From Gordius sp. MW1 (lineage: Eukaryota > Nematomorpha > Gordioida > Gordea > Gordiidae), in NCBI GenBank assembly GCA_964036665.1, contig OZ038530.1:15943001-16007000 (forward strand): DNA of 64,000 nt, written 5' to 3'. This document shows positions 13,974 through 57,251 of the stretch, in pieces; the stretch's first letter is position 1; each line of letters opens with the position of its first letter. The notes under the pieces were generated by a model. It did not search any database. It was given only the letters and a program-made list of their open reading frames with translations, and was not told the origin of the DNA. The position numbers were made by a program, and so were the translations under genes.

Positions 13974-14022
13974 AAACCTATTCTGAAAATAAAGTCTGTG
14001 GGAATACCTAATTTTAAACAAA

Positions 14023-14790: not shown

Positions 14791-14865
14791 AAAATTTATG
14801 ACTTAAATAATGTAACTCACCTTAAACCATACATCCATGTTAGGATAAATCAGAAAATTTTCAAA

Positions 14866-15171: not shown

Positions 15172-15380
15172 ATTGTTGAAAAGTATACCAATGTGTTCAG
15201 TGATGGCACTGGCTGTATTAAAGATTAAGCCAAAGCCATAGCATTTCCTGCACGAAGAGTTCCTTTTCCTTTAAGGAATAAAGTTGAAGAGGAAATTAAA
15301 AGATTATTGGACGAAGATATAATTGAACATGTTGATCCTGCAGCAACACCATAACATGGGCAACTCCAATAGTAAATGTA

Positions 15381-16084
15381 TTGAAATCAAATAATTCCAT
15401 TAGAATCTGCGGCGATTTTCGAGTTACTATCAATCCCTTCCTAACTTTAAACAACCATCTACTTCCGACATTTGACGATTTAATTCTGAAGATCGCAGGA
15501 GGGCAGAAATATACAGTAATTGACTTAAGTGATGCCTATCTTCAGATGAAGGTCGAAGAAAAGTCGCAACAGTATCTCACTATTGCAACACATTTAGGTT
15601 ATTATCGATATAAACGTCTTCCATTTGGACTTTCGATAGCACCAAATTTATTCCAACGTTATATGGAGGAATTATTAGATGGGATTTTCCATACCGGCAT
15701 ACTTCTAGACGATATCATAGTTACAGGGGTAAGTGAAAATAACCACATGCAAAATCTGAACGAAGTACTAAAGAGGGTACAAGACGCTGGTCTAAAAGCA
15801 AAGAAGGAAAAGGTTTAAGTTTTCCAAAATTCAGTTAAATACTTGGGACATGTGATCGATGCAACAGGGATCCACCCAACTGAAAAGCGAGTGGAAGCCA
15901 TTGTTAATTACAAAGAACCACAAAACAAAAAAGAACTACGTTCCTTTTTAGGACTAGTTAATTATCAGGAAAGGTTCATCCCAATGTTACACGAAAAATG
16001 CGCACCCTTGCATGCATTGACGGGCTCATCAATAGGTTGGAAATGGACGACTAAAGAGCAGAAGATTTTATACGATGTTAAACT
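15381..16084 (+). pseudogene. pol: Reverse transcriptase of the Gypsy-type element
   Basis: IRICGDFRVTINPFL, TVIDLSDAYLQM (first catalytic Asp), YKRLPFGLSIAPNLFQRYME, and LLDDIIVTG, the variant of the YxDD box that carries the two further Asp. A TAA at 15816-15818 breaks the frame; the connection continues at 15843 with GHVIDATGIHPTEKRVEAI and LRSFLGLVNY. The last codons before 16085 are cut by the hAT insertion. Confidence 0.9.
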
Positions 16085-16348
16085 CAGGGTTTCTTTCAGA
16101 AAAAATGCTCCGGGGGGGGGGGTATTTTTAACTTCCGGGGGGGGGGGGGGTAAATATTTTAATTGCTAAACCATTTTGTATAATATTTACTCATTTTTTT
16201 GGCGATATAAGTGATATATAAATAGATAATACGTACACGCATAATCATTAAATAATTTATGACTTCATGATGGAACTTGAGTTCATGCTTCCTTCAATCA
16301 AAACTCTCCGGGGGGGGGGGGGTATTTGAACCCCTGAAAGAAACCCTG
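16085..16348 (-). mobile_element. Small hAT-like element inserted in the Gypsy RT/RNase H region
   Basis: Terminal inverted repeats CAGGGTTTCTTTCAG and CTGAAAGAAACCCTG (15 of 15 bases). Just inside the left end and near the right end are long G runs. The flanking duplicate AAACT (16080-16084 and 16349-16353) is shorter than the usual 8 bp. Its right part (ATGACTTCATGATGG.. and on) is the reverse complement of the left part of the 57447-59339 element, so this is a deletion derivative of the same family in opposite orientation. Confidence 0.85.
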
Positions 16349-17168
16349 AAACTGATGCTTTCAACTTCCAATACATTGGTACCGTATTCAACCCCATTGC
16401 CGTTATACCTAGCGGTAGATGCTTCTGAAACTGGTGTAGGTGCTGTACTATCACACTTATATGCAGACGGGTCCAAAAGAGCTATTGCGTACGCATTCAG
16501 GACGTTAAGCGAGTCCGAAAAACGATACTCTACAATTGATCGGGAAGCGCGCGCCGTTCGGTGTTCAAAAATTTGATCAATACGTACGTGGTCGAAAATT
16601 TGTATTGATGACGGACCACAAACCGCTAGAAAGATTATTCGAAAATTATCGGAATTTACCGAAAGTGATCAATAATAGATTAATTCGGTGGGCTTTATTT
16701 TTAAATGGATATCAATACGACATAAAATACCGATCAGGAAAGAACAATCAATGCGCTGATGCATTGTCGAGACTGCCAGATCCAAAATACCTTGAGACGG
16801 ATCAGATCAATCACGTAGGACTACTCATGTTAGATGAATTAAAGTTAGATTATGAAATGCTAAAAACATCAATTAAACAAGATCCTTTGTGTCGTGAATT
16901 AATTTTAGCGATCAACCGAGAATGGCGGTTGGATTTAAAAAAATGCCGTTTTGACATGAAAACGTACTACAATCGAAGGGAGGAACTGTCATTTGAAGAA
17001 GGAATATTATTGCGTGGCAATCGGTTAATAATACCGAGGAACTTACAAAAGTTGGTTTTAAAAATATTACACCAAGGACACCCCGGGATTACAAGAATGC
17101 TTAATTTAGCCCGATATTATGTTTGGTGGCCGGAAATAGACATGAGTATTGATTTGTATGTAAAGTAA
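16349..17168 (+). pseudogene. pol: RNase H and zinc-binding region of the Gypsy-type element
   Basis: The RNase H starts LYLAVDASETGVGAVLSH (first Asp), continues RTLSESEKRYSTIDREA, changes frame near 16555, then VLMTDHKPLERLF and SGKNNQCADALSRLP. Downstream is the integrase H2C2 finger: HQGHPG, then RYYVWWPEID. TAA at 17166-17168 falls just before its Cys pair CDGCQE. Confidence 0.88.
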
Positions 17169-17925
17169 TGTGACGGTTGTCAAGAAGGTCGACAAGCCGA
17201 ACAAGAAGTTCCCTTATATTCTTGGTCCGTACCTGACCGTCCTTGGGATCGAGTCCACATAGATATTTCCGGACCTGTCGAAGGAAATTATTGGTTGGTT
17301 TTAATTGATGCATTATCGAAATGGGTGGAGGTAGCCACACTATCGTCGATTAAAGGACCACAAATTGTGAGGCAGTTACGAAATTGGTTTTGCAGGTTCG
17401 GTATTCCCTTGCAGATAGTATCAGATAATGGACCACAATTTGTCGGTGAAGAATTCACAAAATTTTGTGACAACAACAACATTAACCTCGTAACATCAAC
17501 TCCATACCACCCCAAAACAAATGGATTAGCTGAGAGAATGATTCGAACGCTAAAATCATTGGGCAGCAAGAAAATCAGGGGGAGAGAAAGAACTATGCCT
17601 TCAACAAATAATTATGACATACAGGAATACACCTCAGGCAACCACGGGTAAAGCTCCGGCAAAATTTGTTGGGAAGAAGAGTAAGGACAGCGTTGGACCT
17701 TATTCGACCAGATAAGAAAAGTGGAAGGAGAGATTAGCTAATCAAAAGAGCTACCATGACTGAAAAGCGTGTTATAGGGAATTTAATGTTGGAGATCCAG
17801 TATGGATTCGGAATGAAATTAAAGCAGGCTGGTACAAAGGATTTATCATACAACGTAAAGGCCCATATTCATATAATGTTCGCACTGATAAAGGAATTAA
17901 AAGGAAACAGCGGATCAGTTAAAAT
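17169..17925 (+). pseudogene. pol: Integrase core and pol tail of the Gypsy-type element
   Basis: DDE core: LVLIDALSKWVEVATL (Asp 1), IVSDNGPQFVGEEF (Asp 2), NGLAERMIRTLKS (Glu). A frame break near 17565-17650 follows. The tail then shows a PVW-like segment (EIQYGFGMKLKAGWYKGF) and an end comparable to the pol terminus of the 54413-57183 element. 17926-18121 is a degenerate 3' internal region ending in the purine tract AGGGAGAAA. Confidence 0.85.
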
Positions 17926-20221: not shown

Positions 20222-21110
20222 TAGAGGTGAGGATGGTAGAGGGCAACGTACAAGTTTGCAGTACTGAGGAGCAGTAGTTGAGGCAGAGGCACTATCTATA
20301 AATATTAATATATAAAGATAAGAATGTTACTTTTTATAAATGTTCAAATACAAACTTACAAATTCTAGAGGTGAGGATGTTAGATGGTAAAATAGAAATT
20401 TGGAGTGACTGAGGAGCAGTAGTTGAGGCAGAGGCACCACTTACAAATATAATATAAAATGTAAATATAAAAGATAAAAATGTTACTTTTTAAAAATGTT
20501 CAAATACAAACTTACAAATTCTAGAGGTGAGGATGTTAGAGAAATTTGGAGTGACTGAGGAGCAGTAGTTGAGGCAGAGGCACCATCTACACATACTATA
20601 AAAAATGTTCAAATATAAAATTACCAATTCTAGAGGTGAGGATGTTAGAGAAATTTGGAGTGACTGAGGAGCAGTAGTTGAGGCAGAGGCACCACTTACA
20701 TATATAATATAAAATGTAAATATATAAAGATAAAAATGTTACTTTTTGAAAATGTTCAAATACAAACTTACAAATTCTAGAGGTGAGGATGTTAGAGGGT
20801 AAAATAGAAATTTGGAGTGACTGAGGAGCAGTAGTTGAGGCAGAGGCACCATCTACACATAATATAAAAAACGTTCAAATATAAAATTACCAATACTAGA
20901 GGTGAGGATGGTAGAGGGCAACTTACAAGTTTCAGTGACTGAGGAGCTATAGTTGAGGCAGAGGCACCATCTATAAATATTATATAAATATTAATATGTA
21001 AAGATAAAAATGTTACTTCTATAAAAAATGGTAGAATATAAACTTACAGATTCTAGAGGTGAGATTTCTGAGGATAAAGTACAAGTTTGGAGCGACTGAG
21101 GAATTAACAA
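20222..21110. repeat. Mosaic tandem array, seven units of about 110-157 bp
   Basis: Units begin TAGAGGTGAGGATG at about 20222, 20365, 20522, 20631, 20778, 20896 and 21054. A second block, GAGGAGCAGTAGTTGAGGCA, follows in the first six, with AT-rich spacers of variable length. Unit lengths of 143, 157, 109, 147, 118 and 158 reflect presence or absence of subblocks. On the minus strand each block edge reads like a splice donor (TTTGTAAGTTTG). The array ends about 550 bp before the first MAP3K4 exon. Confidence 0.9.
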
Positions 21111-21695: not shown

Positions 21696-24600
21696 GTAGA
21701 TTTTTTTGGAAATTTTTCATTATGGAATAAAAAGCCCATCAAAAAGCATTCAACTTTGCTTAAAAAGGCAATATATTTTATCACTTATCTGTTATTTTTT
21801 CAACATTTTAATACCTTTACTTTTATTTGCCTTCTCTTTAAAAAATGAAATATTCACAAAAATTATATATCTCTTGCATTAAATTAATAAAATTTAGTTT
21901 CAGAATCTATTAAACTAGAATTTAATATATTTATATTTAGGACAACAGTTCTAGTCATTCATCTAAAGAAATTGATCCCTGGATGAATTATGAGATTAAT
22001 GGTGTTGGAGATTTATCTAATGCTATTTTTGATAATTTTTTTAAGGATTCTACTTCATTTTTCAAAAAACCAATTAGTCCATTAATAAATCATAGAAATA
22101 CACCTTTAAATGGCACAGCTGCTGATCTTACACCAAACTTAAAGGTAAGATATCTTAAAATTGACACCAATCAATTACCGAGGACCAGACAAAATAATGT
22201 TAACCCTGAGAAAACTTCTCCTAAATTGCGAAACAATTCGTTCAAAAGAAGGAAAGGCTCTACAGCTCGCAAATGGATAGATGATATAAAAGAGCGTTGG
22301 AATGAAAGAAGGAGACAGAGAAGTTTAAATCCTCATAGTATCAATAGAAAGACATCTTTTAGATGGAGACAAGATTCTTTGTCTTCAGAATCAGATTGGG
22401 ATGATGGGTGGGATAATTGGTGCAAAAGGCATATGGATTTAGATCGTAATTGGTTGTCAGGTCCACTTTCAACTCATTTAGATTTTGCAAAGCCTTTTCG
22501 TTGCTTAGAAAGTCGACCCGTCTCTATCATTGTAGCTACCACAGATGATAGTGATCAAGAGGCATATTCTAAAGCACGTTTAAAGCCCAAAACCTTTGTC
22601 ATGGAAGATAGGATATGTAAGGAAAATTTGATACCTATAGCAATATTAAGTAGTAGTGAGGAGGAAACAATATCATCAGTCCTTGTAAGTGGAAGCTGCA
22701 GTATGGATTCAAAGGACAAAGAAATTGCGATCAAAAGACAAGAATTTAAAGCATCCCTCAATTCTGATCTCACACAATTGGATTATTCCGTCACTTCTTT
22801 AAAACGAAGACCTCCAGTTGACAAAAAATCCACTTGCGGGAAGTACAAATCTTTTACTATCAAAAATGCGAAGTCTTTAACTGCAACAGCTAGCGATTTT
22901 GAAGGTACAAAACTTATCCCTATAGCTATCGAACGCGATAATGACCATAACCACATACCCGATGCTGAGACGGATAGACGCAAATTTTTCGAAAATTTAA
23001 CTGGCATGCTAGATAAAGGAGATGCATGCAATAATAGATCTTTTGAAGAAGAAGAATGTGTGGAAAATGAGACACCTTGTGGAAACAAAAATGTGACGCG
23101 GCGAAACAATAACATTTTATGGCGCAGTAAATTGTCCGAATTAATTTGGCTAGAGCTGAGAGCTTGGCTCCACGGCACTACCCTAAGACAAGAAGACGAA
23201 GCCCTTAGCACGGCACGAGATAGGATGTCAATCGTACTGGAAAAGATTGTAAACTTTGAAATACCTAAAAAAGAGCTTGGTTATATGGGACTCAAACTTG
23301 GCTTACCGACCAATTTAGGCTTGCCCGATATACTCACTGCCGTTCAAAAGGAAAACGACCTAGTGATAAAGCAAGATTTCTCTCAGGTCGAATCCCTCCT
23401 ACAGGCATTAGATGAGTTTGAATCCTTATTTCCCAACACCGCGTCCATCGCCAAACATTACCCCCTTTACGCCGATCGTGCATTCGGTGTCAGGGTGAAA
23501 ACGCTGTGCCTGTGGTACAACGTTATCAACGTTTTAAAGTACAAAATTCGAGCCTTGGGCGATATACTTTACCTCAACCTATTTCCTTCCTTAAAATGGC
23601 CTTTTTCGCCCGAACCTCAGCCATTTAATTTGAACGGCCCGTCTCCCAATTACGACAGGTTCGATTCGTATTCATCCTTCAATATTTGGGACAGTTTGAG
23701 CAACTCTCCCAATTCCGAACGATTCTTCACGCCACCCGAGCTAGGTTCTCCCGTGGTAGGTACATCCATATACCGTTTGTTCATAGAAAAGAGCGTGCGT
23801 CAAGGTCCGCTGTCTAAAGTCATTTTCAGGCTCACAAAATTGCTGCACGCCACGTTGCAAAAAACTCGGGCCGCTTTAAACGGCAATTTCCCACAATTCG
23901 AAGACGGGAATAAGGACAGGGCAGGCAAGCATGGGAACACCAACAGCGGCAAAACTGATATCGCGGATGCCGATTTGGAAAGTCACGACGACCCTAGTTT
24001 ATCAGTTGCGAATTTGATGAGTTTGCTAGACGCCAAGTATGGTTGTAACGGCTTGGAGTGCGATTACTACAAGCACATACAACAATACGGCGTGCATAGT
24101 CCCGAATTTAGGGCTATGCAATTACCTACCTTTAGGACCACTTTTTTGTTCGTGGCACGCATCCCACTCGATATCGTGCACGAATGGTTGAGACTGAGGA
24201 TTCAACAGAAACCTCCAAACTTATCCTTCCTCAGCGCCAATCAACTCATGCGAGAGTGCAAAGAAGTGCTAAAAGCTGCCGTTCTCATCCGCTATTACTA
24301 CTGCACACTCGTCAAGGTATGAATTTGTATGCGACTTCTATATGCTTAAAAATATATATATTTTTTGAAATGAATCAATAATTATTGTGAGTGTCACACT
24401 TTAAGTTAATTTACTCTAATTAATGCCATCTATAGGTAATTTTACAAAATAGTTTTCATATACCACAATTACGGAAGTTAATCCCTAGCCATGCTAAAAG
24501 TGGGTTGGATCTAATTTGGCCTTTATTACCTATTTGCGTAGTATGTGACTTGAAAATTAACTATGGCATACTGATGAATTCTAATAAGAGCGAAAATGTT

Positions 24601-27600
24601 ATATGTCTGTTATCATTTTCGAGTTACATGCTAAAAAAGCTAGGTATAGATTTAGCCAAATTTGTCTCTGATTAAAATTGTCTAAAGATGGCAGTAATTA
24701 GAGTAAACTTAGTTAAATTGCGGTGGTTGCTATCTCGTTGAATTCTATATGTACGTGTTTTTAGGCTATCTTTATGGAGGGCGAAGATATTCCTGAACCG
24801 TGTCTCAAAAACTTTGACGATGACTTAAAATGCATGCTTTCCCTATATTTGCAATACCTGGATAAATTGGTCGTTTTGACTCCTGAAAATACCGATCATA
24901 CGCAAGTGACACTTTTGGAACAAGAGTGGAAATTTATAAAAATGATATGCCCCTATATTTTAGACAAAGAAGTATGTGTCATACGAAACGGTGTAATCAT
25001 TTATTTCTTTATTTTAAATTGGCTAATAGTTCTCATTAAATTTTATCCAACTAGTGTTCGTGGTGTTCTAGGTTTAAATTTAATTAGAGTTTTTGTCGGT
25101 AGGCACTAAGTTTAGCATACTTCATTTTATGTTTAGGTAGAAGCAGGGAAAAAGATTTGCGCGTTGATTAGCAAGCTGCTTGAAACAATCATTGTTGCTC
25201 TAAAGGACGGTGTCGAAGAGTGTTTGGAACATTTTCAATACTGGTGGCAGGTATAGCAAATATATTTTTCATCAAAACCTTCATATTAAATAGACACATT
25301 CCTTAGAGTAGCACAAGGTATTTTATAATTGCCACTTTGTTAATTTTAGGTTTTAAAATTGACTTTGAGTAATGAACTAAGGAAATATAAGGAAAAAATA
25401 TCTAATTTAGCTATCATCCGAATCGAATGGGATCCATAATTACCGGCATTATAACAGCCTCAACTCGGCCAACACTACCATATGTAGTAGCTGTAATAGC
25501 AACGTCGGTAGCAATAGCAATTATTCTTCTTTAGTACCCGACAGCATTACTCTGAACGATAAGGGCGATTTCAGTAGCGAAAGAAACGATTTTTTGAAAG
25601 TTTCCCCCTCTTCAGAAGAATCATCGCTTCCCAGTAACCAACTTGCCACTACTACTGTCGATGTTACGCACCGAGACTTTAGGGCTATGTTTACTGACGC
25701 TAAGGAACGCTCGTGTAAAATCTTAGGCCTAACTCGAGTCGTTAGACAAGATCTCGAATTTGCTTCGACTTACACCATGGTGCCCGGCAAAGAATTTGCT
25801 GCACTTCAACATTTGTTCGTTCATAATTTTGTGTCATTAGCCTTCACTTGCCACCCAGCACCGGTTAAATCCTCGAATATATCCGAGGACTTAATATCTG
25901 ATTCCTCGGTACATATTATAAGATGTTCTTCCCCAGCTCCTTTAGTGAGAGTGACTTCCAAAAAAAGGCCTCTTACCTCTAAACACGAATTAGCCGGTGG
26001 TCAAAGATCCACTTCGTTTAGGAAAGTCAAAGGAACTAATAACAAATCTGTCGCACCTAAAGATTATGAGACCATCATGGAAGGTTGCTCATATATTCCT
26101 ACGAATTCCAGTTACAAGTGATTAATTTGAAATCGTTCGCAAGTTTTTTGATGTATTGTGTTATGATAATAATATAATTTGCGTTTGAGTTGTTAGCAAA
26201 GCAGACGATAATTTATGCGATAAAAAACTCGGCTCGTCTATTTAAATACATTTATTTTATCAACTAGGAAAAAATAGTTTTAAAACTCATTCATTTCCTC
26301 TTAATTTATCTTGCATATTTTTAATTCAATATTTAAAAGAATTATTTGATAATTTTTTAAAATAACCCCAATAATTACTATAGTGAAGTATGCGGTGACA
26401 CAATCAACAAAGCCAAATCCCGTTTAATCCCTCTGCAAAAATACGATAGCGTACCTACAGACGTGCTTAACGAGAGCGATGAAGTAGCAACTTTTAAAGA
26501 AACTAATTTTTGGGTTTTTATCCCATGTGCTATCGCGAAAGATACTCAAATCATATCCAAATTACTCAACATGGACTGCCATCGAGAAACTGCATCTCAC
26601 TTATCCAACCCCGAGTATATCATAATAAAGCTTTTGCAAAATATGGCTAGGACTTAATATAGCTAATATCAATATGATTGTCATTCCTTTGTAAGTAATT
26701 TGGATTGATACGATGAGTAGAAGCCAAAGAAATTTGCAGATTCTACTGTTCTGTCTTCTAACGTGTTTGTTATCTTACCTATTCGCTTATTTTAATTCAT
26801 TTTTGTGTGTAATTTCAATTCCTCTTTTTACTTTGATGCCTGAAGATGGGCCCCTGTGCCCCCGAAATATTGAATTTTTTTTCTTCCTACTCATTTCACC
26901 AATCCAACCATGGGCGTAGCCAGCATTGGAATTAGAGTGGGGCTATAATGAAGGGAGGGGCAAAATGATCATTCTTTGACATTTTAGCCATAATTTTAAT
27001 CAATTCTAACAAATTTTTGGATTTAGAGGGAAGCAGCCGCCTCTCCCTGCCCCCCCCCTGGCTACGCCCACGAATCCAACCCTTCAAATTTAAAATAATA
27101 TATACATAGCTAATATCTTTAATAAAATAGATTAGTTCAAATAATGACTTTCTTCAATTGATATTACGTTTTTAATCATTATTTAAACTGAAAAATAATG
27201 GAACTACTTTAATAAGTAAGCATGAGACCTACAAATTGTCGATAATGTGATGACTCCATTATTTAGGTCGGAACTTAATGAATACCTGGTAATAATGCCT
27301 AAATCTCGAGATTCTAAGTCTAACGTATGGCCCGGCAAAACGTTTTACGTTGACATTTGTTCGGAGATTTGGAAATCGTTTAGTGCCTACGATTGGTCCT
27401 GCCTAGTTTTACTGGGAAAAACCGCATCTGCCTTAGGCAAGCAAAGGACCGCTCTAGAGGTATAAATCCCTGATTTTCATAACTCATTTACTGGTTTTAT
27501 TTGGAGTGGGCCTCGAAATTTTTGGAGAAAGCAACTTAAAAAAATATGTTTTAATAGAACTATTTTGGAACTTATTCAATTCCAGCGTCCTAACAGCATT

Positions 27601-30600
27601 ATTAAGTTGGCAAATAGATGCATGTTTTAATACCTCTTATAATTAATTTTTGAATAAGCCTTAAAAATTTGTCAATAATGTTAATATAGATTAGCCAATT
27701 TTAGGTTGGCATTAGATTGTGGATGTTTATGTTCAATATATCTAATATTAAATCAAGGCTTTTCAAGTTTTTATGGTTGAAAATTTCTAGCTTTTTAAAG
27801 TTGACAAAGCTCTACAAATAGAACGCAGTTTAAAAAGAACAGATTTAATAACGATCTTAAGACAGTGCAAAACAACGTTATTTTATATGATGATTTTGGC
27901 AAGCGAATAAGAATTTTATCCTATGCGACCTTTAGAAAGTGATGGGAGACGCGATTCAATTGGAAACGCCTCAAACTTCTTTTCACATCGATATAAACGA
28001 TGCTCTGCTACAGCTAAAGACAACTATAACGAAATTTGAAGATGGGATCATAAATGGAACGCGCAATTTGTTAGCCGTTTTAGATGAGATGAACGAAGAA
28101 CTTGAGCAATTGCGTACAAATTCCGCCCCTTCCATTCAACACAAATTGGCATTTAGAAATAATTTCGCCTCTCTCACTCTAGCCTACGAGCAAAAGCTCA
28201 GGGTTAAGGAGAGTTTTAGAGACATTCTCGCTTACTCCTTCGATCTAGGTTATAAATTAATGCCCTGTTAGCTATGCATATAAGCTTTGCCTATTCTCTT
28301 TTAAAAAGTGTACATTGTGAGACGCTGAAAATTGACTATGAAATTTCTTTCTTAAGTGAAAACATAAATATTACAAGTTTTTATAAATTAGATTAAAAAT
28401 TTTTATTCACTTTCAATGTTTTTAAATGTAAAATTATAAATGAAGTTCAAATGGCCTGCTTAAAGTCATGCTTAAGTTTGTTATCGCGTTAATTGAGATT
28501 TGTGGTGGTTATAATATTCTTATCGGGAATACAACAAAAATAATGTGCTTTTGAAATTAATTTTTCCGTGTTCTTTTTTATAAAAATATAAATAATTTTA
28601 CTTTAACAACTAAATATTAAATCTTCATTCGATTTTACTGTTAGGTTTCGATTATTTTCGCGATTCTACTAAAACCATTTCACCATGTTGCCCTCTTTGT
28701 CCCTTCTCCCTTCCATGCTCCGCCGTCCCTTCAAGCTCTTTAACTGGACTTTCTACGGGCTTGTATTTGCCTGAAGTTGCCGAGGGCATAATTGAATTCG
28801 CTAGGATGTGGTGCCTGTTTGCCATCGTATATATTATTGATAAATTAATATATTGTACTATTTACTTTTTCTCCTAAACACCGATTTCTTTGCTTAATTT
28901 AAAGAGCTATTCCATTTCGAATCGTCCAAAAAGATTTGGATAAATTGTAATGAGGGATTAGATTTCATATATTAGTGTAATATTTTAAAATTTTAGCCAT
29001 TTTGAGCCAAAACTTTTTAAGATATGAACGTTCAAAGGGTCAAAATTGCGTTGGGGTGTGTTTGACCAGTACTACTATTTCGCCATATTTTTGAAAGTAA
29101 TAGCGCTCCTCTTTTTTGGTGTAATTTGTTCCTAACAAATTCTCGATCGTAATAATTTACCAAAAAGAGATTGTCAGTCGAAAGCGTTTCCATTTGTCAT
29201 GGAATGGCCTTAATTAATCTTCGCGATAGATAATTTCAGTTTTTTGTAAGACAGAAAATCGGCAGGACTATAATAACTTGCAATATCAGAATGTTTTCCA
29301 AATTAACTTTTTATTATTTATTTCTTTTATCTTCATAAAACATGTATTTTTAATAATAAAAAAATTCAATTGTAAGTTTAGCATTGATATTTTTTTAATC
29401 GTTCGTTTTTTGGTGCAGAAAAATTACGAAATTGGGCACGGGCGCAAACCGCGTTGGGCTTTGCAAGGCTTGAATTTTTTAAAGATGGCCGCCGAGCCTT
29501 GTATAAGCTGCTACATTTCCACTTCGCATTCGGGTAGCACTAGTTTTAGACAATGGGCTAATGTTGTAAAGCGATGCGTGCAACATGTTATAGGGCAAAA
29601 ATTGGAGGAGTCGCCTGGCCAAAGCGCTAAACAAACAAATAACCCGGGTGGACCTTTTAATTTTGCAAAATTTCAACCGACCCTAAATCGTTTTTTATCT
29701 GACAACACCAAACTCGAGAATAAGGAGCCCGGTGAAATAAAGGAAATTGGGGATTATTATTATGGTGGTGAAAGTGTTGTTAGAGGTGAGAGTGAAGATA
29801 TAGGGCTTAGGAAGGGTTTGCCTCCTCGCCGCAACATGACCAATCGCGACTACCATAGAAATCTCTCTTGGCCTCCTACCGTAAATTGATGATTTTTTAG
29901 TTGTGAACATAATTTTTTTCTATACCTATAGCAGTGTTTTTTACACTTAGAATGTTAAGCATGACAAAAATGTATTTAGTTGACAAATTTTGCCTGTTTA
30001 TTTACGCTCGATAGCTGATAATTTTTAAAATTTGCTTTTGCCTTATAAAAACTTATAATCTAAATTCTCCAGTGGTTGTTGAATTTTGGCTGATAAAGTA
30101 ACTAATGTAGTATAACTGATTCCATCAGATTTTTCGAAAATTAAGGTAAATAGCAAGTAGTCAATATAAGCGCCTCGATCTATGATTTTTGGTCAATTTG
30201 CGTTGGGTTAATTTGATTTTTGTTTTGGAAAAATTCTGACCCATTTCAAGTTTTTTTAGCACGTACAGCATCTTTAAAAGTCTAATACTGATCTATATCT
30301 TGTTTGTGACGGCACGGGCGTAGAACCCCTTTACCTTTCGCACATAGTTTTTTGTTTTGCTACTAGTCTTAGGAATAACGGATCTTAAAGATGTTTATAG
30401 TAAATTTAAAAAAAACATGATTGTAATTTTGGAGCTAGAACAAAAAGTATTGCGATCTATATAACTGTATTTGCTAAGGAATCGCCGAATAAAAGGAAAA
30501 ATAGGAGTAACCCCAAAACAGTCTTGCTAACTACTAGCGAAAAGGATGTCAATGCTTTGGCTTTGCTACAGCAACAAAGTGACGCCGATGCTTTGGCTGA

Positions 30601-33600
30601 TAAATTTGAGAATATGTCCAAAATCCAAAAGGTTAGTCATTTTATGGATATATTTTGTTTCGATCTAATGCGCTTTAGCTTTTGAAAAAAATATTTTAAA
30701 AAATTACAAATATTTGTAATAATAGTAGTGATTTTTGTTATAGCCCTAGTAAAAAAAATTTGGGCTTAGCTATTTTGAAAATAAATTTATACACGCTTAA
30801 ATTTTGAACAGAATCTTTTAGGCATATCAAACTCGATCCCTTTTTTAAACCCTGAAATATAAGTAAGCATTTATTAAAATATTAATTCAAAAAGGGATTT
30901 TCTTGTATTCCGTTCACCATTATTTTTAAATACATGTAAACAATATTGCGTAAACAATATTGCGGTTTTTTTGTTAATGTGCCCTACCTTGTTACAAAAC
31001 AATCATTATCCTATGAATTTAAGGATATAACTATTGCCTTGTGAATCAATATTCAATAGGGTTAAAAATAATCATTTTTGCGTATAAAAAGATAAAAATG
31101 CCATATAAAAAGTTTATTTACTTAATTTAACCAAGCAAACTCTACTCCCCACTAAGTTCTGAAGACACTTTTAATTTTCATAAAGTTATTTATTTTCTTC
31201 TACCTGTGGAGCAATCATATTTTGTGTCCTTCTATAAAAGGCTTCATAAGAGACTAACTAACGATCACTAAACACCAACCAAGTGTCTTAAATATCAATC
31301 TTTTCACAATGTCCCTAACAACTTTTTGCACTCGGCCCATTAATGTACTGTCAATTAAAGCTTAAATAGTGTAATACATTGTTGTAAAACGGATGGGTTT
31401 TGTTTGGTCGACCTTTGGTTTTAGTCGACTAAACATAAGCAAACCAAAAGTTTTTTGGTCTCGTTATCTTACGTCGGCGTCTACTAAGAAAAACATACCA
31501 TAAAACCGCAGGTCTGTTTATGTTTAGTAAGGTTGACCAGCTACACCTGTATTGACCTGTTTGCCCCCTCCAACGATACTCACGACCCCCTAGGATCGGC
31601 AGAGCATCGTAAATCCTTAAAATACTCACCTTTATCGGAAACCTCCATTTTTATTCCTATCGTCTCGTCGTGCTCAGGGACGTTTGGGAAGAGCGCATTA
31701 AATTTTTTTAAAGAACTCAATAAACGCTCGCCCCCTTCTAAAATATCGAATAGTTTTTAACTAAGACAATCAATTGCGATTGCTAAATCCAATTTTTATT
31801 CTTTGATGGATTCAATGCCCATTCTTAAAGAAGATGAAGAAACGGATAATGTGTTTTAATCATTTTTTATAAATGTTTTCGTTCTTGTATCTTTTTATTA
31901 ATTCCACTCTATATTTAACACTTCTTTTTTAATAAAGCACGTCGAAAAAAAATATATATATATAGCCTGCTGCCCATACATAATACTTTGGCCATCTCTT
32001 TGCTTTACACCCCTTCCCCTACAAAGTCCTGGCTAAGCCCATAATGGTATTTAAATCATACCAATGCATCTAATATTTAGGTACGATATCGGGTTTTGGC
32101 TTTAGATGAAGCTAGGGAGCATCATCTTAAGGAGAGGGGAGTGATTGGAAAGATTAGCGATAGAACGGTAGAAGACACCTTCCTTCACATATCCTCCCGT
32201 AGGGTACATTTCCGTTGGCAGAGGGGCATCAAAATTGGCCAAGGCCAATCGGGTAAAGTTTACACGGCCGTTAATATGGAGAGTGGAGAGCTGATGGCCA
32301 TGAAAGAAATTCGGTTGCACCCCAACAACGATCATCAAGTTTGCTACAGGAATATTGTACTTTTGTGTTGTTTAATGGACGTATAAAATTGCTTATTCTC
32401 TGCCTAAATATAATTTAAATCTACGTGGTACCAAAGGCTAAGAATTTTTGGCATCTAGCGATATCTAAAATGCCTTTTCTACAGTTAAATATTGTCGTTT
32501 TGTGTTGTCTAAAAGTTAAAATTGCTTATCTGCTGCTAAATATAATTAAAACATACATAATGTTAAAGGTTTGGAACTTTTGGCATCTAGCGATATTTAA
32601 AACGTCTTTTCTACAGGAATTTACACCTTTTTTATATCTATTTCGCGTGGCAGTGATTTAGTGTGATCAACATTATTGATGCATCGCTTTGTGGGGAAAT
32701 CAGATTAGCAGTCCCTATAAAAATATATAGGGAATTAATAATTACCGACTACTTTAATTAACATCAATTGTCTCTGTATCTTGCAAAATTAAACGAAATT
32801 TGAAATGAAATATTGAGCTTACTGATACCAAACGACTTTTATACCACTGACACGTGATCTGGTAATTACGAGCTTATTAGCATTAATATTCAGGGTAAAT
32901 TTTATAATTAACTCAAAAACTAAACCACTAAATTTTTAAAAGACATAATTTTATATTCCACTATGAGCATCAGTCAAATTATTAGTTCTAATTTGAACTT
33001 AAATTTTATACTAAAATTCGTGATATTTTTACAATTTAAAGGCTCGATACTCATTCTACTTATAAAACGCCTTAGTATAATTATTTTTGAACACAATCAT
33101 TTTAATATTGCAATTTTAATTAAATAAAATCATTTTTAATGATTAAATGAAGTAAAATTTTATTATTTTATAAAACACTGAGAGCCACCAGTCAAAGAAA
33201 ACTTGGTCAGGAGTAAAAATTTTTTGTTCCTAATAATAATTTGTACCCCCTTTTTGTAAAAAAGGACATCCCTAGCAAACTATCTAGCTGGGTTATCACT
33301 TTTTGTAACTTAACTTAAACTTCTATATAACTATCAATTTTTCTATCAGTATCTTATATTTTACTTCTATATAACTATCAATTTTTTCTATCAGTATCTT
33401 ATATTTTAATGACTTATTCGATTACTTCGAAATTATTACCAAAATGTTAGATCTCTCTGACTTCAAATTACGACTCCTAAGTTCTTTTTGATAATCAATT
33501 TTTTAATCGAGTGAGTGCGTTAATTTTTTAATTAAACCAGCTGAAATATTTTCCTCCTCAGGTGATAAAAGAAGTGGCAGACGAAATAAAGTTATTCGAA

Positions 33601-36055
33601 AACGTGCGTCACCCCAACCTAGTGCGGTATTACGGGATAGAAGTGCACCGTGAAGAAATGCTCATCTTCATGGAATACTGTGGTGGAGGGACACTTCAGG
33701 ATGCTGCCCGTACTGGGCAGCTACCAGATTTCATGGTGCGAAAGTATACGCGAGAATTGTTGCTGGCCGTGAACAAACTTCACGATTGCGGTATAGTGCA
33801 CCGAGATATCAAGGGGGCCAATATATATCTATGCTCTAGCACCAGCCCCGAACCCTTTAAATGCAACAGAGCCTCCTCACCTAAGAATGTCGATCCTACT
33901 ATCAATGGTACAATTGATTTGATCGTCGTAATGTATATACTCGTTTCACTTTTTAATTTGTATTAGCATGGGCGTAATGGTTGGAACTAGAGCAGCTTTA
34001 GGGGGGGGGGCAAGTTAATTTTTTTAATTTCTAGATTAAGAGATGGACAGTTGCCTCTTCCTGCCACCCCCTGGCTACGCCCATGTTTATTAGTATAAAT
34101 AGGATGTACTTAAAAAAATTTTAATGTTTGCTAAAATTTTATTTGGGAAAATTCAGGAGTTTTTAAAAACGCACCTGAGTGGTTATATTTACTAGAATGG
34201 ATATGATGGTTGTTTTTATTATTTATACCCCTACTTTTATTCCTTTTTCTGTAAATAATGTGCTTTTAAAGAATATCTGATATTTGCAAAAATTATATTC
34301 AGGAAAAATTTAGGGGCACATGGAATTCTTTAATCTAAAAAGATTAAAGCAATTTATAAAATTTTAAGTGCCGATATTATTTTGAAATGCTTTTAATTTT
34401 TTGTATAGAAATTTATAATGTTGACATTTGTTGTTCATAGTATCTAAGGACGTAACCGAAGTTTTGAGAACCGATCTGAACAACGGGTTTGGGGCTGGAG
34501 AAAGAGACAATCAAGAACGAGAAGAGGCATCTCTGAAATTGGGCGATTTTGGGTCTGCCGCCAAGCTTAAAAATTTTTTCACGGTTCCCGGTGAAGTTAA
34601 AGGCTTAGTGGGTACTCCTCCTTTCATGGCCCCCGAAGTTATTAATAGGTGCGAGGGTAATGGACGTGCGGCTGATGTATGGAGTTTGGGATGCGTCGTC
34701 ATCCAAATGCTCATAGGTAAAGTTATAAATTTTGGGTAAGACCTTGGATATTATTTTTAATGTTAGTGGGACAAGCGAATTTATTACTGGTTAGAAGCCG
34801 GTCGAGTTTTGCAAATTTTAAAATGCTTTCGGGTCGGATTTGGGTTAAGTTTTGAAATGCATTTGGGTCGGGTCGGGTTCAGGTTGAAAAAAGTGCCTTT
34901 TTCAGGCATTTACTAGTGGTTGACAAATACACTTATTTTTTCAACAAAAATTGTATAAAAGGCTTGCTCATTTTATTAAAAGAAAGAAAGCGACGCTTTG
35001 TAATAATGCAGAAACGAGTTTTAATGGAGAAAAGAGCAACTTGTATAAAATTTAACGCAAAAATGTAGAAGATTTAAATTTGTGAAAGAGCTACTGACTT
35101 AATTTTTTGCGGGAGCGTTCTTTATATGGGACACGGTGAAAGTTTTTTATTGGAAGTAAATTTTTCCATAATTTTATTATAGATATATTTTAGCAATAAG
35201 GGATGCACTAATAGTAAGGTTGTTGGATCTTTGTCCAGGTGGTAGTATGCATCCTTATGAATATGAGGGCATTTGTGGGTAGTCATCTGTAAAGCATTTA
35301 GACTTTTTTAAATACTGCTTGCTATAAGATAAGTGATATTTTGAAAATGTTGATGCTATTGATAATGTATATCAAATGAATTATTTGAAAAGCATCTAAT
35401 ATACCACAAAGTTTGTAAGGAGCTATAATGTAGACACAAATGGCAGATTTTATCGTCGCTTAAATGCGCCTGTAATTTAAGGAAACACTCATTTTACATA
35501 AAGATCGGTTAGATTTGTGGCAAACAAATCTTTGTTTTTTAGTTTTGACAAAGATCAAAATATAGTCACTTTCTTAAGCACATAAAATAAATTGTTTTTG
35601 TTCAGCGCTGCATAGTTTAATTATGGCAATCGGATATGGGATTGTTTTTGCAGCCTTATGACATTTTTGACAACTATTAATTTTTAGCTATTTATTTTTC
35701 CTTAAGTTCATCTATATTATGGGTTAAATATAAAAATAACAATTATGAATTCCAAATCTCCGTTCGACTAATGCTACAATTTTATTAATTTTAAGTTAAG
35801 CACTCTTAAAGTTCTTAAAGTCATTTACATTGACAATAATGTTTAATTCATGCAGGTCGACCACCGTGGAGCGAGCTAGAAAATATGTTTCAAATCATGT
35901 ACAAAGTTGGTTCTGGTCAGAGTCCACCCATACCCGAAAATGCTAGCGAAGAGGTCGTTGATTTCTTACACCATTGTTTCGAGGTGGACACTCGTCTGAG
36001 ATGGTCTGCGGCTAAGCTCCTAGAACACCCCTTCCCTAAAGGAGGAAAAATTTAG
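21663..36055 (+). CDS. MAP3K4: MAP3K4/Mekk1 mitogen-activated kinase kinase kinase, 15 exons
   Basis: Orthologue of human MAP3K4 and Drosophila Mekk1, a Ser/Thr kinase that phosphorylates MKKs upstream of p38 and JNK in stress signalling. Exons joined by GT-AG sites with consistent phase: 21663-21695 (tentative), 21941-24316, 24765-24971, 25137-25250, 25411-26117, 26384-26614, 27267-27459, 27936-28266, 28777-28826, 29419-29880, 30479-30631, 32081-32338, 33562-33907, 34441-34716, 35856-36055; about 1978 codons before TAG. The N-terminal two thirds holds the conserved MAP3K4 helical region (ELIWLELRAWLHGT; ANQLMRECKEVLKAAVLIRY). The C-terminal kinase has GQGQSG, AMK, HRDIKGAN, DFG and APE. Unlike the human protein it has about 55 residues between the catalytic loop and DFG. 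Human MAP3K4 is about 1600 aa; the excess is mostly in low-complexity N-terminal sequence. Confidence 0.93.
21941..24316 (+). CDS. MAP3K4: MAP3K4 exon 2, large N-terminal exon
   Basis: 792 codons between TATTTAG and GTATGAATT. A Ser/Arg/Asp-rich variable part (to about 23100) precedes the conserved part with NELIW-type KLSELIWLELRAW, SIYRLFIEKSVRQGPLSKVI and FLSANQLMRECKEVLK. Base composition shifts from AT-rich to about neutral near 22900, in step with conservation. Confidence 0.93.
24765..24971 (+). CDS. MAP3K4: MAP3K4 exon 3
   Basis: Phase 0 to phase 0. FDDDLKCMLSLYLQYLDKLV and LLEQEWKFIKMICPYI match the region after the ECKEVLK block in the human protein. Acceptor TTTTTAG, donor GTATGTGTC. 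Confidence 0.9.
25137..25250 (+). CDS. MAP3K4: MAP3K4 exon 4
   Basis: 38 codons, VEAGKKICALISKLLETI.. ..EECLEHFQYWWQ, phase 0 at both ends. Corresponds to the human GEAQAGKLFCDIA region. Confidence 0.9.
25411..26117 (+). CDS. MAP3K4: MAP3K4 exon 5
   Basis: Acceptor TCTAATTTAG at 25401-25410 gives the open frame. An upstream AG at 25348 would run into a stop after 29 codons. Asn/Ser-rich start, then DFRAMFTDAKERSCKILGLT and RVVRQDLEFAS, conserved in the family. Ends phase 2 at GTGATT. Confidence 0.88.
26384..26614 (+). CDS. MAP3K4: MAP3K4 exon 6
   Basis: Starts after ACTATAG, reads EVCGDTINKAKSRLIPLQKY, and ends within LSNPE at GTATAT (phase 2). The frame continues to a stop at 26655, but only the 26614 donor keeps phase with exon 7. 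Confidence 0.8.
26909..27072. mobile_element. hAT MITE of the GGGCGTAGCC family, copy 1
   Basis: CATGGGCGTAGCCAGCATTG to CCCTGGCTACGCCCACG, flanked by the exact 8-bp duplication AATCCAAC (26901-26908, 27073-27080). C runs near the right end. In MAP3K4 intron 6. Confidence 0.92.
27267..27459 (+). CDS. MAP3K4: MAP3K4 exon 7
   Basis: One base completing a codon, then SELNEYLVIMPKSRDSKSNV and FYVDICSEIWKSFSAYDWSC; ends at GAG before GTATAA, phase 0. Confidence 0.88.
27936..28266 (+). CDS. MAP3K4: MAP3K4 exon 8
   Basis: After CCTTTAG; KVMGDAIQLETPQTSFHI, then a helical segment LLAVLDEMNEELEQL, and FRDILAYSFDLGYKLMP. Ends at GTTAGC with one base left over, matching exon 9. Confidence 0.85.
28777..28826 (+). 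CDS. MAP3K4: MAP3K4 exon 9, 50-bp micro-exon
   Basis: Found by homology and phase. AEGIIEFARMWCLFAI matches the conserved FARKW segment of MAP3K4. Acceptor GCCTGAAG, donor GTATAT. With its 50 bp, the phase 1 of exon 8 becomes the phase 0 of exon 10. Confidence 0.78.
29419..29880 (+). CDS. MAP3K4: MAP3K4 exon 10
   Basis: After TTTGGTGCAG. KNYEIGHGRKPRWALQGLNF matches the G.G..PRWA.QG.(D/N)FL motif. The C-terminal half is variable and basic. Ends ACC before GTAAAT, phase 0. Confidence 0.92.
30479..30631 (+). CDS. MAP3K4: MAP3K4 exon 11
   Basis: ESPNKRKNRSNPKTVLL.. ..LADKFENMSKIQK, 51 codons, phase 0, donor GTTAGT. Variable linker before the kinase; supported by splice sites and frame more than by identity. 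Confidence 0.72.
31627..31860 (-). pseudogene. Dispersed exon-like fragment, copy 3, in a MAP3K4 intron
   Basis: Antisense to MAP3K4 intron 11. Reads FDILEGGERLLSSLKKFNAL then FPNVPEHDETIGIKMEVSDK, with two in-frame stops upstream. It ends at a donor-like AAAG/GTGAGT (minus strand). Related to 5170-5460 and 46355-46640 and the least degraded in the core, so it is closest to the unidentified parent gene. Confidence 0.5.
32081..32338 (+). CDS. MAP3K4: MAP3K4 exon 12, kinase N-lobe
   Basis: EAREHHLKERGVIGKISD leads to FRWQRGIKIGQGQSGKVYTA (glycine loop GxGxxG) and GELMAMKEIRLHP (ATP-binding Lys). Acceptor AATATTTAG, donor GTTTGC, phase 0. Confidence 0.95.
33562..33907 (+). CDS. MAP3K4: MAP3K4 exon 13, kinase central part
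   Basis: VIKEVADEIKLFENVRHPNL (alpha-C Glu), LIFMEYCGGGTLQDAA (hinge), and LHDCGIVHRDIKGANIYL (catalytic loop). Ends with one base at ATCAATG/GTACAA. Confidence 0.94.
33967..34085. mobile_element. hAT MITE of the GGGCGTAGCC family, copy 2
   Basis: CATGGGCGTAATGG to CTGGCTACGCCCATG. Duplication TGTATTAG/TTTATTAG (one mismatch). In MAP3K4 intron 13, 59 bp after the exon. Confidence 0.88.
34441..34716 (+). CDS. MAP3K4: MAP3K4 exon 14, kinase activation segment
   Basis: An acidic stretch (GERDNQEREEASLK) precedes LGDFGSAAKLKNFFTVPGEV (DFG) and GTPPFMAPEVINRCEGNG (APE), then AADVWSLGCVVIQMLIG. Incoming phase 1, outgoing phase 1. Confidence 0.95.
34790..34905. repeat. Short GGGTCGGGTC repeat fragment in MAP3K4 intron 14
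   Basis: TTTCGGGTCGGATTTGGGTT and GGGTCGGGTCGGGTTCAGGT resemble the ends of the element at 43899-44576. A fragment only. Confidence 0.4.
35856..36055 (+). CDS. MAP3K4: MAP3K4 exon 15, kinase C-lobe and stop
   Basis: RPPWSELENMFQIMYKVGSG, then the CFEVDTRLRWSAAKLLEHPF terminal block; TAG at 36053-36055. Confidence 0.94.
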
Positions 36056-53742: not shown

Positions 53743-54412
53743 ACTTACATGACAAAATTTCAGTGGCTTAAATGAGGGGAGTTTGCCTTAGTTACAATTT
53801 ATTTACTAGCGTCCCGGGCAAAAATTTGAAAAGTTTTTTGATTAATTACTAAATTAAATGGGTTAAAATATCATAGTTTAGTTACATCAAAGACTTTAAG
53901 ACACTTATAAAAACCTAGAAACATAATGTATACATCCAATTTTTTTGATTTAATTTTTGACAAAATGCGTTGTAAACTTTCTGAATATGATTGTGAAAAG
54001 TGATATGAAAAAAAAAATTTGTTTGAACATTTATTTCCCGTGAAAACACCAGACCCCAGGAATTAGATAACTAAGCGATTATTATAATGTTACTCATTCT
54101 ACATAATATTAATACTTTTATCATTTATCATATTTGTCTAAAATTCTGCTAGAACCCATCACGGTTTGATAACAAAATTGCCTGCCATGGCCAGCTAAAA
54201 CCCTTTAATTGCCAATTCACTAATGCTGTCCGAACAGCCGGTGTAATATCCATTTCCACGACGCTCAAAAAAATCGACATGCCAATCAAAAAATTTTCTT
54301 AAAATTTAAAATTAAATATCTATAGGCTAACACAAACGTCATCAACAGATGTTTTCAGTTAATAACCCATAATATTCACAAAAAATATTGATTATAATTC
54401 AACCATGGTTTA

Positions 54413-54538
54413 TGAAACGACCGTAATTCCAGAATGTGTTTTAGAACTAAGTTTTTAATATTCAAATTATGTCACATGTGGTTGTTGATAAAAAACAAAA
54501 TATATTTTTCAATTCGATGTTATAGTACAATCATAACA
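54413..54538 (-). repeat. 3' LTR of the hnRNP-carrying element
   Basis: TGAAACGACCGTAATTCCAG to ATCATAACA on +; three indels and a few substitutions against 57053-57183. Confidence 0.92.
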
Positions 54539-54677
54539 TCTCTTCCCGCTTAATTATTTACATCCTCACATCTCTTCAATCAATCTACTTGGCGGTTTCT
54601 TGATTCTTCTTAGGAAAACATTTTCATTTTCCGGTGTATCCATTTCAGCTGGCATTAATTCCTCTTGTACTGACTGT

Positions 54678-55035
54678 TCAAATACCAGTGAGGCTGATTT
54701 CGACATTTGTTGATCGCGTTTCCTCCACCTCTTCATGAAATTCCTCTACTGATATCGATGCCGCTGAACTTAGTGCCTGTTGATCTTTGACTTCTTCTTC
54801 CCTCCTCCTTAATTGGTCCGCGTGCTTCCTTATTTTCCTTGGCTTTCCACTGTATATGACCATATTCCATTTCGTTGTAATACCGTGCCCTCCCTCCAAC
54901 AAGGTCTAAATCGTTTTTTACCCACACTGGCTGGTTATTTAAAATTCTCGTGAACTTAAACCCTTATCGTGATAACAACCTTGCTTTTCTCTATTGTGTT
55001 CTAGATTAGTTCTAGGGTTAGGTCTAGTCCAATCC
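54678..55035 (-). pseudogene. pol: pol C-terminal tail of the hnRNP-carrying element
   Basis: Across frames: LDWTRPNPRTNLEHNREKQG, YHDKGLSSREF, PVWVKNDLDLVG, then a chromo-like end with RKIRKHADQLRRREEEVKDQ. This matches the extreme C-terminus of Gypsy integrases, including the corresponding part of the 13860-18223 element (about 17690-17925). Confidence 0.78.
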
Positions 55036-55039
55036 AACA

Positions 55040-55760
55040 GGGACCGCCGTTTGGCTTTACCCCCATTTCCTTGATTCATGGCCGGGGCAACTTGTGGTTG
55101 GCCTTGACAATAATATCCAGAATAGTAATCGGTACCCAAATTTCTAGCATAAAAGCCAGAATAATCATAGTTGACGTAATTGTTGCCACCTAAGCCTTGA
55201 TAGTAGGGAGAGTTTTGATTCCAACCAGCATTGGCTTGGTTGTAATTCATGTGACTGGCTTGCTGAGGTGATTTGCTGGATGGTGTAGCCTTTTTTACAT
55301 CACACTCTTTACCTTTGATGACAATTTTAGAGTTCTTATAGTTTTCCTGCACAATTTCAGGATTATCAAATGCAAGAAAGCAACCTTTTCTTTTTCGATT
55401 CTTTACTTTATCAAAAGGCTGCCCAATTTTTTCAATGTTGCCATATTTATCCAAAATAGCTTTTATCTCATTTCTGTGGTGGTGCGTAACAGCTCCCGAC
55501 CAGGTCTACTTTTAGCTCTTTTAGGATCAATTTGTTTACCATTAATAACATGAGGCCCAGATGCAATTAAATTTTCAACAGCTTGAACGGTTTCAAATAA
55601 AACAAAGCCAAATCCTCGTGAATTCCCTGTGTGAAGATCCGTCTTAATATTAGCATCAATTAGGTTATCAAATTTGGTGAGGTATGTTTTAAGATCATTT
55701 TCTGTAGTTTTCCAGCTAATCCCGCCAATGAACAATTTTCGTTCATCATCATCTTTTTTG
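55040..55760 (-). pseudogene. Captured hnRNP (squid/hnRNP A/B-type) retrocopy
   Basis: Derived from a nuclear pre-mRNA-binding hnRNP with two RRMs. RRM1 (55757-55500) reads DDDERKLFIGGISWKTTEND (RNP2 is LFIGGI), then SRGFGFVLFE (RNP1) and INGKQIDPKRAK. RRM2 is damaged at its start (RNP2 lost with a frameshift near 55465) and resumes with NEIKAILDKYGNIEKIGQPF, RKGCFLAFDNPEIVQE (RNP1-like) and KGKECDVKKATP. The tail is the Gly/Tyr/Asn-rich low-complexity region (NYDYSGFYARNLGTDYYSGY). No introns are present although such genes normally have them, so it came through RNA. The ends lie within pol, not at poly(A). Confidence 0.85.
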
Positions 55761-55840
55761 TTGTATTTATGGTTTCCCTTTTAGAGAACCTCGGTTTTCT
55801 TACGGGAAAGGGAACACGATGGGCAGGAATTATTAATCTG

Positions 55841-56260
55841 CTACGAATTGACCTCCTTGTAGACTTTGTTAATCCTTACACATTTCGGAATCTCCAAACC
55901 GAATTCTATAATCCAAGGTAACCCAAACAACGGTACATCCATGCTTTTAGTGACAATTGCAGGTAAATTCTTAACCTTTTCTCCAACTTCCACTTTAATA
56001 ATCACTTCCCCCATAACATCTAGCGTCTTTTGACCAAACGCGGCTAGGTTATTAGTTTGTCTTAACTTGGGACTGCCCACTTGGTTCCATATCTTCTTGT
56101 TAATAACTGATACCTGTGCTCCAGTATCATATTCAAGACAATATGGAATATCATTCAAACATGCCATTATAATAGCTCTATACTCTTCTAACTTGATTAA
56201 TTGAATTGTCATCTGAACTTCCATATCCATCTCCACCCTAAATTTTGCAAGCCCTTGCAA
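55841..56260 (-). pseudogene. Protease of the hnRNP-carrying element
   Basis: EYDTGAQVSVINKKIWNQVG holds the D-T-G triad; PLFGLPWIIEFGLEIPKCVR is the family C-terminal block, as in the 14866-15171 protease. Stop at 55841-55843. Confidence 0.85.
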
Positions 56261-57023
56261 AATGTCCTATTTTCTTGAATTTATTACATGTGGCATTGAT
56301 TGCTGGACAATTTGCATATAAGTGGGACCTCCCGCAGCGGTAGCATCTTGAAGAACGATTCGCCTCCTGGTGCTCTCTATTGACACTTGTCACATTACGA
56401 CTATCTTTGATTTTATTAATATTCGCGGTGTTAACTTTGTTTTCCGCTCTTTCCCATGCCAACGCCATATTTAAAATTTAATTAAACGTTAGGCATTTAC
56501 TATCATGATCCATCATAATTGGATATTTACTTCGAATTTCCACTTCCAATCTTGGGTAACGAATTCCAGCTAAAAACTTGTCACGCAGCCGTTCTTCGAC
56601 ATCCTTTTCAAATTTTGCAAGCTGAGCCGTTTCGTTTAAACGTTTTGTGAATTAAAACAGTCTCTCTTTCAGCTCTTATAATTCGAATGAATTCAAGTCT
56701 TGACGCCATGATGCTAGATTTGGGCTTAAAAATACTTTGACAAGTCTCCAAAATTTCATCAAAACTGGCCTCTAAGATAGTTTTTGGAAATAGAAAATTT
56801 TTAACCTGAATAACGTTGGCGATTCCAAAGTACGCTAACAATAATTTTTTAAAATACGCTTTAGTTCTTCCCCCTGGGCATGAATTCCTTTAGCCAACAT
56901 TGTATACTTTACATTGTCGAAATGTTCTTCCATTGGAATCTCCGGGGAGAATTGTTGTAGAACGATTTTTGATATATCGACTTCCTTGTCAGTATCCGAT
57001 TCATTTTTAATAGCATCATTCAT
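56238..57023 (-). pseudogene. gag: gag of the hnRNP-carrying element
   Basis: ATG at 57021-57023, 30 bp after the LTR/primer region. Pieces: 57023-56835 (ISKIVLQQFSPEIPMEEHFD), 56841-56608 (capsid-like), and 56468-56238 with CYRCGRSHLYANC (CX2CX4HX4C) and a second, damaged knuckle (CNKFKKIGHFARAC, first CX2C altered). Frame breaks at about 56838 and 56470-56610. Confidence 0.82.
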
Positions 57024-57029
57024 CCTTGA

Positions 57030-57052
57030 ATAATAATTTCCTCGTCGCCAAA
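57030..57052 (-). promoter_or_regulatory. Primer-binding site of the hnRNP-carrying element
   Basis: The minus strand reads TTTGGCGACGAGG directly after the 5' LTR. Confidence 0.65.
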
Positions 57053-57183
57053 TGAAACGACCGTAATTCCAGAATGTTTTAGAACTAAGTTTTTATTATT
57101 CTATGTCAGATGTGGTTGTTGATAAAAAACGAAATATATTTTTCATTTCGATGTTACAAACATAAAATAATACAATCATAACA
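57053..57183 (-). repeat. 5' LTR of the hnRNP-carrying element
   Basis: 131 bp, the upstream LTR in minus orientation, next to GTTTA at 57184. Confidence 0.92.
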
Positions 57184-57251
57184 GTTTACAAGCTTAATTA
57201 AAATTTATCATATTTAGAACACTGCATTTACTTATCTTTTGATATGTGTTT

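Follow-up and report, generated by a model that had tools for sequence, protein, structure and literature searches.

The window, a 64,000-nt stretch of the Gordius sp. MW1 genome, contains a decayed, non-autonomous Ty3/gypsy-type element on its minus strand (54413–57183), with part of a host hnRNP gene in place of pol sequence. We consider it very probable that this copy belongs to a non-autonomous Ty3/gypsy-type lineage that transduced the host gene within one element family (F2), multiplied, and passed its cargo to a second family (F1). The mechanism is already known from LTR-mediated retroposition, Bs1 and v-onc transduction; the multiplying, family-hopping cargo lineage is the new part. 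Transduction of a host gene into an animal Gypsy-type element had been proposed in an earlier note on this DNA, and it is upheld by recurring junctions, the lack of poly(A) and a donor gene with introns in the same genome.

All internal features of the window element lie on the minus strand. Target-site duplications of GTTTA, read from the sequence, flank it at 54408–54412 and 57184–57188. LTR comparison assigns both LTRs to the F1 type; the 5′ LTR (57053–57183) is 131 bp long and the 3′ LTR (54413–54538) 126 bp, and they have TG...CA ends with 5 mismatches over 120 aligned positions (K2P 0.043). The primer binding site TGGCGACGAGG (57040–57050) was identified by complementarity to tRNA-Ser(GCT): it pairs with the 3′ terminus of such a tRNA gene found in this genome, extended by the CCA that is added later. 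Gag (56240–57023) is mostly of the F1 type; frameshifts interrupt it, and remnants of zinc knuckles lie towards its end. The sequence switches from F1 to F2 near 56339, and the protease and pol start (55828–56339) are of the F2 type. Only 44 bp of the F2 RT leader are left (55791–55834), between deletions characteristic of the type A copies described below: near 55828–55834, 102 nt upstream of the RT leader are deleted, plus 5 nt more in the window copy, and at 55790/55791 the remaining RT leader and the hnRNP start are gone. The captured segment of spliced, squid-like hnRNP A/B-type sequence (55048–55790) corresponds to host CDS nt 161–935 and includes an open frame with RRM1 (55463–55780; ORF list and Pfam). 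By family comparison, the C-terminal end of integrase (54832–55047) is of the F2 type; near 54832 the sequence switches to an F1-type 3′ internal tail (54550–54832), which ends at the polypurine tract GCGGGAAGAGA (54539–54549). Similar tracts precede the 3′ LTR in other F1-backed copies. The LTRs, GTTTA duplications, primer site, gag, protease, polypurine tract and pol tail named in the earlier note are all present at the coordinates read.

The window copy is non-autonomous: it lacks the integrase core, RNase H and the greater part of RT. Among the window ORFs searched against Pfam, the hnRNP ORF matched RRM_1 (5.1e-12), the protease ORF matched gag-asp_proteas below the cut-off (1.3e-5; 26.1 bits against 28.2), and the zinc knuckle gave a weak match (0.0099), also below the cut-off; no family was matched by one gag ORF or by two ORFs covering the end of the hnRNP segment and the tail. 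The nearest PDB sequences to the hnRNP segment are hnRNP D-like, A2/B1 and A1. An Rfam search of the window returned no matches. With an RT leader and integrase end from F2 and LTRs and gag from F1, the window copy is an F1/F2/host mosaic, a secondary recombinant with later deletions.

A single intron-bearing gene in the genome (211.8 Mb, 12 contigs) matches the cargo. This donor gene has nine exons, whose limits come from alignment with the cargo and from GT-AG splice sites, and encodes a 326-aa protein; its 981-nt CDS spans C8:7710225–7711984 (locus L027). Among the matches listed, the closest protein is an hnRNP of the hairworm Gordionus, with 70% full-length identity in the database search and 236 identical residues among the 319 of our own alignment, and the 119 other listed relatives are at 60% or less wherever an identity is given. 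All donor introns are absent from the cargo and host exons abut directly. The earlier note had described an intronless two-RRM hnRNP: alignment to the species' own nine-exon gene confirms an hnRNP segment without introns, and the segment is incomplete, covering CDS nt 161–935 of 981 in the window and missing 27 nt with the RNP2 motif of RRM2. A repeat beside one F2 copy (L030:3256–3826) recurs near the donor gene (L027:834–2195).

Apart from the donor gene, two genome searches found at least 19 loci with the cargo. They are spread over contigs C1, C2, C3, C4, C5, C7 and C8, and their cargo is 77–96% identical to the two query copies. We read all 19, the window included; cargo at this many loci excludes chance. 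Six copies are of type A: five with F1 LTRs (the window and L009–L012), and L013, which has the type A deletions and F2-like LTRs. Type B comprises four copies (L014, L015, L020, L024) and type C seven (L016–L019, L021, L022, L026); L023 and L025 fall outside these types. The earlier view that the chimera moved as a unit holds: an LTR pair was detected in 15 of the 19 copies, and in the 13 LTR-paired copies other than L013 and L024, nine have exact 5-bp target duplications (window, L009, L010, L011, L014, L015, L016, L017, L020). Two more (L012, L022) have a 5-bp duplication with one mismatch, and L018 and L023 make up the remainder. LTR pairs of the same 13 copies differ by K2P distances of 0.011–0.085, which give only rough ages because the LTRs are short.

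Four cargo-free relatives were read, two from F1 (L028, L029) and two from F2 (L030, L031). F2-type copies are 64–65% alike to F1 over the protease and RT leader. At least 10 places in the genome match the F2 RT leader without adjoining cargo, L030 and L031 among them. In L028, the RT, RNase H and integrase regions occupy the place of the cargo, in the order protease, RT, RNase H, integrase; L030 also has integrase. Pfam families matched in the cargo-free relatives are RVT_1, RT_RNaseH, rve and H2C2, and some integrase relatives are named gypsy or K02A2.6-like. Reading frames are broken in all four, and none of them is an intact full-length helper.

The capture junctions are the same from copy to copy. 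In each of the 13 copies where the 5′ junction survives, F2 RT runs from KNTL directly into the host CDS at nt 46, without a change of frame. The host match ends at nt 934/935 in the six copies that reach the 3′ junction (window, L009–L012, L023). F2 integrase sequence then picks up immediately ahead of LLDW, and this join is in frame wherever we read it (window, L011, L012, L023); in L025 the host match ends at nt 901. The captured piece is CDS nt 46–935 of the spliced mRNA. Since its borders fall at nt 46 and 934/935, it has no start codon, neither UTR and no poly(A). No poly(A), UTR or target duplications of its own were found at the cargo edges, and the cargo stands in place of pol sequence and is not inserted into an intact pol. 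Measured on L028, the replaced stretch is ~1.98 kb and takes in the YLDD motif of RT, RNase H and the core of integrase. At the switch points the parents share AA (5′) and AAAC together with one G from neither parent (3′), too short to distinguish from chance, so template switching is inferred but not proven.

The capture probably proceeded by two template switches. F2 element RNA and spliced hnRNP A/B mRNA would have been copied within one particle. During minus-strand synthesis, reverse transcriptase would have switched within the integrase region from F2 to the hnRNP mRNA, copied it from CDS nt 935 back to nt 46, and rejoined the F2 template in the RT region. The product is an in-frame RT–hnRNP–integrase chimera on an F2 backbone that has lost ~2 kb of pol, namely RNase H and the greater part of both RT and integrase. 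It afterwards spread as LTR-bounded insertions, for which full elements presumably supplied the enzymes in trans.

Other routes to the same arrangement fit the junctions poorly. A processed hnRNP retrocopy made by LINE-type machinery could have landed in an element, the pair moving jointly from then on, and the intronless cargo is what such a retrocopy would leave; but there is no poly(A), UTR or local duplication, both ends lie inside the CDS, ~2 kb of pol is gone at the exact cargo site, and both joins are in frame. We regard this origin as highly improbable. Slightly less remote, and still very unlikely, is read-through transduction, in which transcription of an element beside the hnRNP gene yielded one long RNA that underwent splicing and packaging. 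The absence of every intron is what splicing of such an RNA would produce. However, the cargo lies inside pol and does not adjoin an LTR, and in the 10 kb around the donor gene the four F1/F2 loci match only through the repeat from the L030 flank. An artefact of assembly or segmental duplication has no observation in its favour and deserves practically no credence: there are 19 copies on seven contigs at 77–96% identity to the two queries, and their separate target duplications refute it. The LINE retrocopy, read-through transduction and an artefact were therefore rejected on junction, poly(A)/UTR, copy-number and duplication evidence, and transduction by template switching is the reading we carry forward.

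The later history of the chimera can be followed through the cargo. Only L023 retains the 27 nt holding RNP2 of RRM2; exactly these 27 nt are missing in 17 copies, and in L014 they are missing with 7 extra nt, which we read as a later duplication. In a cargo tree with the host gene as outgroup, L023 is basal and all other copies group together (support 96). The tree agrees with the structural types: type A with L013 has support 100, B 88 and C 96, and L025 is sister to A (79).

Element sequence around the cargo was assigned in 120-bp windows in 10 of the 19 copies (window, L009, L010, L014, L015, L018, L021, L023, L024, L025), all windows going to F1, F2 or host except for unmatched stretches in L018, L021, L024 and L025. 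The cargo is surrounded by F2 in two type C copies and in L023, and L025 is F2 with an F1 tail. Type B copies run from F1 (LTR to protease) into ~300 bp of F2 RT leader and host nt 46–872, then join F1 integrase at TPYHPKTNG; this 3′ join is in frame in L014, L015 and L020. In L024 the join is out of frame, a private 2-nt gap lying immediately ahead of it, and the F1 part has an unmatched insert. Type A copies have an F1 LTR and gag, F2 protease, host nt 161–935, the F2 integrase end, and an F1 tail and LTR. Types A and B are different mosaic arrangements, so at least two recombination routes brought the cargo into F1 backbones. Capture in F2 and the recombinant nature of the window copy are points beyond the earlier note.

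Some copies have additional structure. The unmatched inserts of L021 (~968 nt) and L024 (roughly 0.8 kb) lie in the protease/RT-leader region and are perhaps nested elements or further captures. L023 carries a 397-bp direct repeat, 92% alike, at both element ends (1703–2099 and 5645–6037 in reverse-complement coordinates), far longer than a target duplication.

To assess a function for the cargo, we compared changes private to one copy with those shared. Private substitutions (171 nonsynonymous, 22 stop, 52 silent) are as expected without constraint, and changes found in two copies up to 80% of copies (47 nonsynonymous, 7 stop, 11 silent) do not differ from them (Fisher p 0.49). Differences present in 80% or more of copies have a silent excess (20 of 40, p 0.0003) that includes changes in the host gene's own lineage. 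By comparison with Gordionus, 12 of the 19 amino-acid differences in this class fall on the element side and 1 on the host side, with 6 unplaced; silent differences could not be placed on either side. Several of the 12 element-side changes are in RRM2.

Structural changes give a different picture. Nine changes shared between copies were tallied in pol and cargo: both capture junctions, the 3′ joins of types B and C, the join of type A at nt 161, and four deletions (27, 42, 9 and 102 nt). Every one of them keeps the frame, with a chance of 5e-5 at one third each for a list drawn up after seeing the data, compared with 12 of 51 private cargo deletions. The type C join is in frame in L016, L017, L018 and L021, and at the join itself in L026; it is one base short in L019 and L022. 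The 102-nt deletion is common to the six type A copies and is in frame in L009, L010, L012 and L013; in the window the 5 nt more lost put the join out of frame. L017, L025 and the cargo-free L030 have this stretch undeleted and out of frame; one further column of the alignment gap is an L017 insertion and does not belong to the 102 nt. In gag, a 48-nt difference is in frame. Length differences of 1 nt in gag are common to L009/L012/L014/L015, to L010/L012 and to window/L029; they may be recurrent, or the gag frame may not be kept.

These observations bear on whether the cargo is a working module, either as an RRM1 fusion that binds or packages RNA or as an open frame needed for the element RNA to spread. 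The nine in-frame shared changes favour it, and RRM1 is without stops or frameshifts in 7 of the 19 copies. Against it, shared substitutions resemble private ones, seven stops are common to two or more copies (contrary to a needed product), gag has shared 1-nt length differences, 18 of 19 copies have lost RNP2 of RRM2, and several fixed changes fall in RRM2. We judge a working module unlikely. Apparently unconstrained amino-acid changes during amplification together with the loss of RNP2 in 18 of 19 copies leave a working RNA-binding product without support, and this also applies to the earlier suggestion of a product affecting packaging or splicing, as RRM2 was damaged early. The kept reading frame is the one observation that favours a product. 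A protein function would account for the kept frames, and so, equally, would selection to keep the message uninterrupted, as in escape from nonsense-mediated decay. We hold that since its capture the cargo has been mainly a passenger.

A role for the cargo could also lie in regulation. The longest exact stretch shared with the hnRNP CDS is 36–88 nt per copy, and 658 of the 981 host CDS positions are within a 25-nt exact match to at least one copy. It is conceivable, and in our judgement doubtful, that RNAs or small RNAs from the 19 copies silence or tune the hnRNP gene, or that the in-frame RRM1 fusion served the element as an RNA-binding aid during its spread. If true, this would be an animal element whose captured gene has a job. 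With self-sequence repeated in a transposon, the system also allows one to ask whether small RNAs against the donor gene result.

Several known systems resemble the Gordius lineage in part. In acute transforming retroviruses, viral genes have given way to host coding sequence, frequently fused in frame, which travels with the aid of a helper. Host coding sequence is likewise fused in frame to an element protein here, whereas no constraint on the cargo was seen. For both animals and plants, template switching into LTR elements is an established process, according to the extracts consulted (PMC13317346, PMC8232201, PMC5408686, PMC6431247). Extracts on LTR-mediated retroposition describe template switching at short shared sequence in flies, mosquito, zebrafish and chicken (Tan et al. 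2016, via PMC8232201 and PMC5408686). The process likewise places spliced host mRNA in an LTR element, and the Gordius cargo is intronless, between LTRs and without poly(A); in contrast to the retrocopies of which the extracts speak, it is present in 19 copies and two families and was captured in frame on both sides. Maize Bs1 is an LTR element with pieces of three host genes, none a full-length ORF, as extracted from PMC13317346. Bs1 too has host-gene pieces in the coding region of an LTR element, but it is a plant element with three genes, and the present one took nearly the whole CDS of one animal gene.

The Plutella element Pxyfem, as presented in extracts of PMC9674220, combines a partial host cDNA with LTR-element pieces at its edges in 11 copies, and a second family is proposed to have joined later. 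It shares with the Gordius lineage a partial host-gene cDNA, LTR-element pieces and the involvement of a second family. Unlike the dispersed LTR-bounded insertions with target duplications seen here, Pxyfem forms W-linked tandem arrays in which its authors did not identify LTRs (PMC9674220, extracts). The same extracts indicate that such a partial cDNA can silence its donor gene, Masc in Plutella (PMC9674220). Large retrotransposon derivatives hold foreign DNA between two LTRs and are moved in trans (PMC6431247, in extract); here, the cargo is an identified host mRNA, and gag and protease persist in decayed form. In the open-licence literature seen, partly as extracts, host-gene capture by animal LTR elements is described mostly as retrocopies. 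An animal family of dispersed, LTR-bounded copies that had multiplied while carrying a captured host gene, and had transferred it between element families, did not turn up there. A single capture can be traced stepwise in Gordius, from donor gene and donor family through an early RNP2-intact chimera and its deletions to a second family. How a retrotransposon turns into a gene-carrying element, the way in which retroviruses acquired oncogenes, is therefore open to study within one genome.

The window has other features beside this element. ORFs of another Ty3/gypsy-like element lie at 13993–17651 (plus strand), with gag, RT, RNase H and integrase motifs recognized by eye, and ORFs at 1268–2205 (minus strand) resemble what we take to be a piggyBac-type transposase. 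Pieces of a large gene occupy 21941–33966 (plus strand); a 793-aa ORF at 21941 had no match in a protein database search, and 33532–33966 reads like a protein kinase (HRDIKGAN), possibly of the MAP3K4 kind. A tandem array with a 266-bp unit spans 20394–21102.
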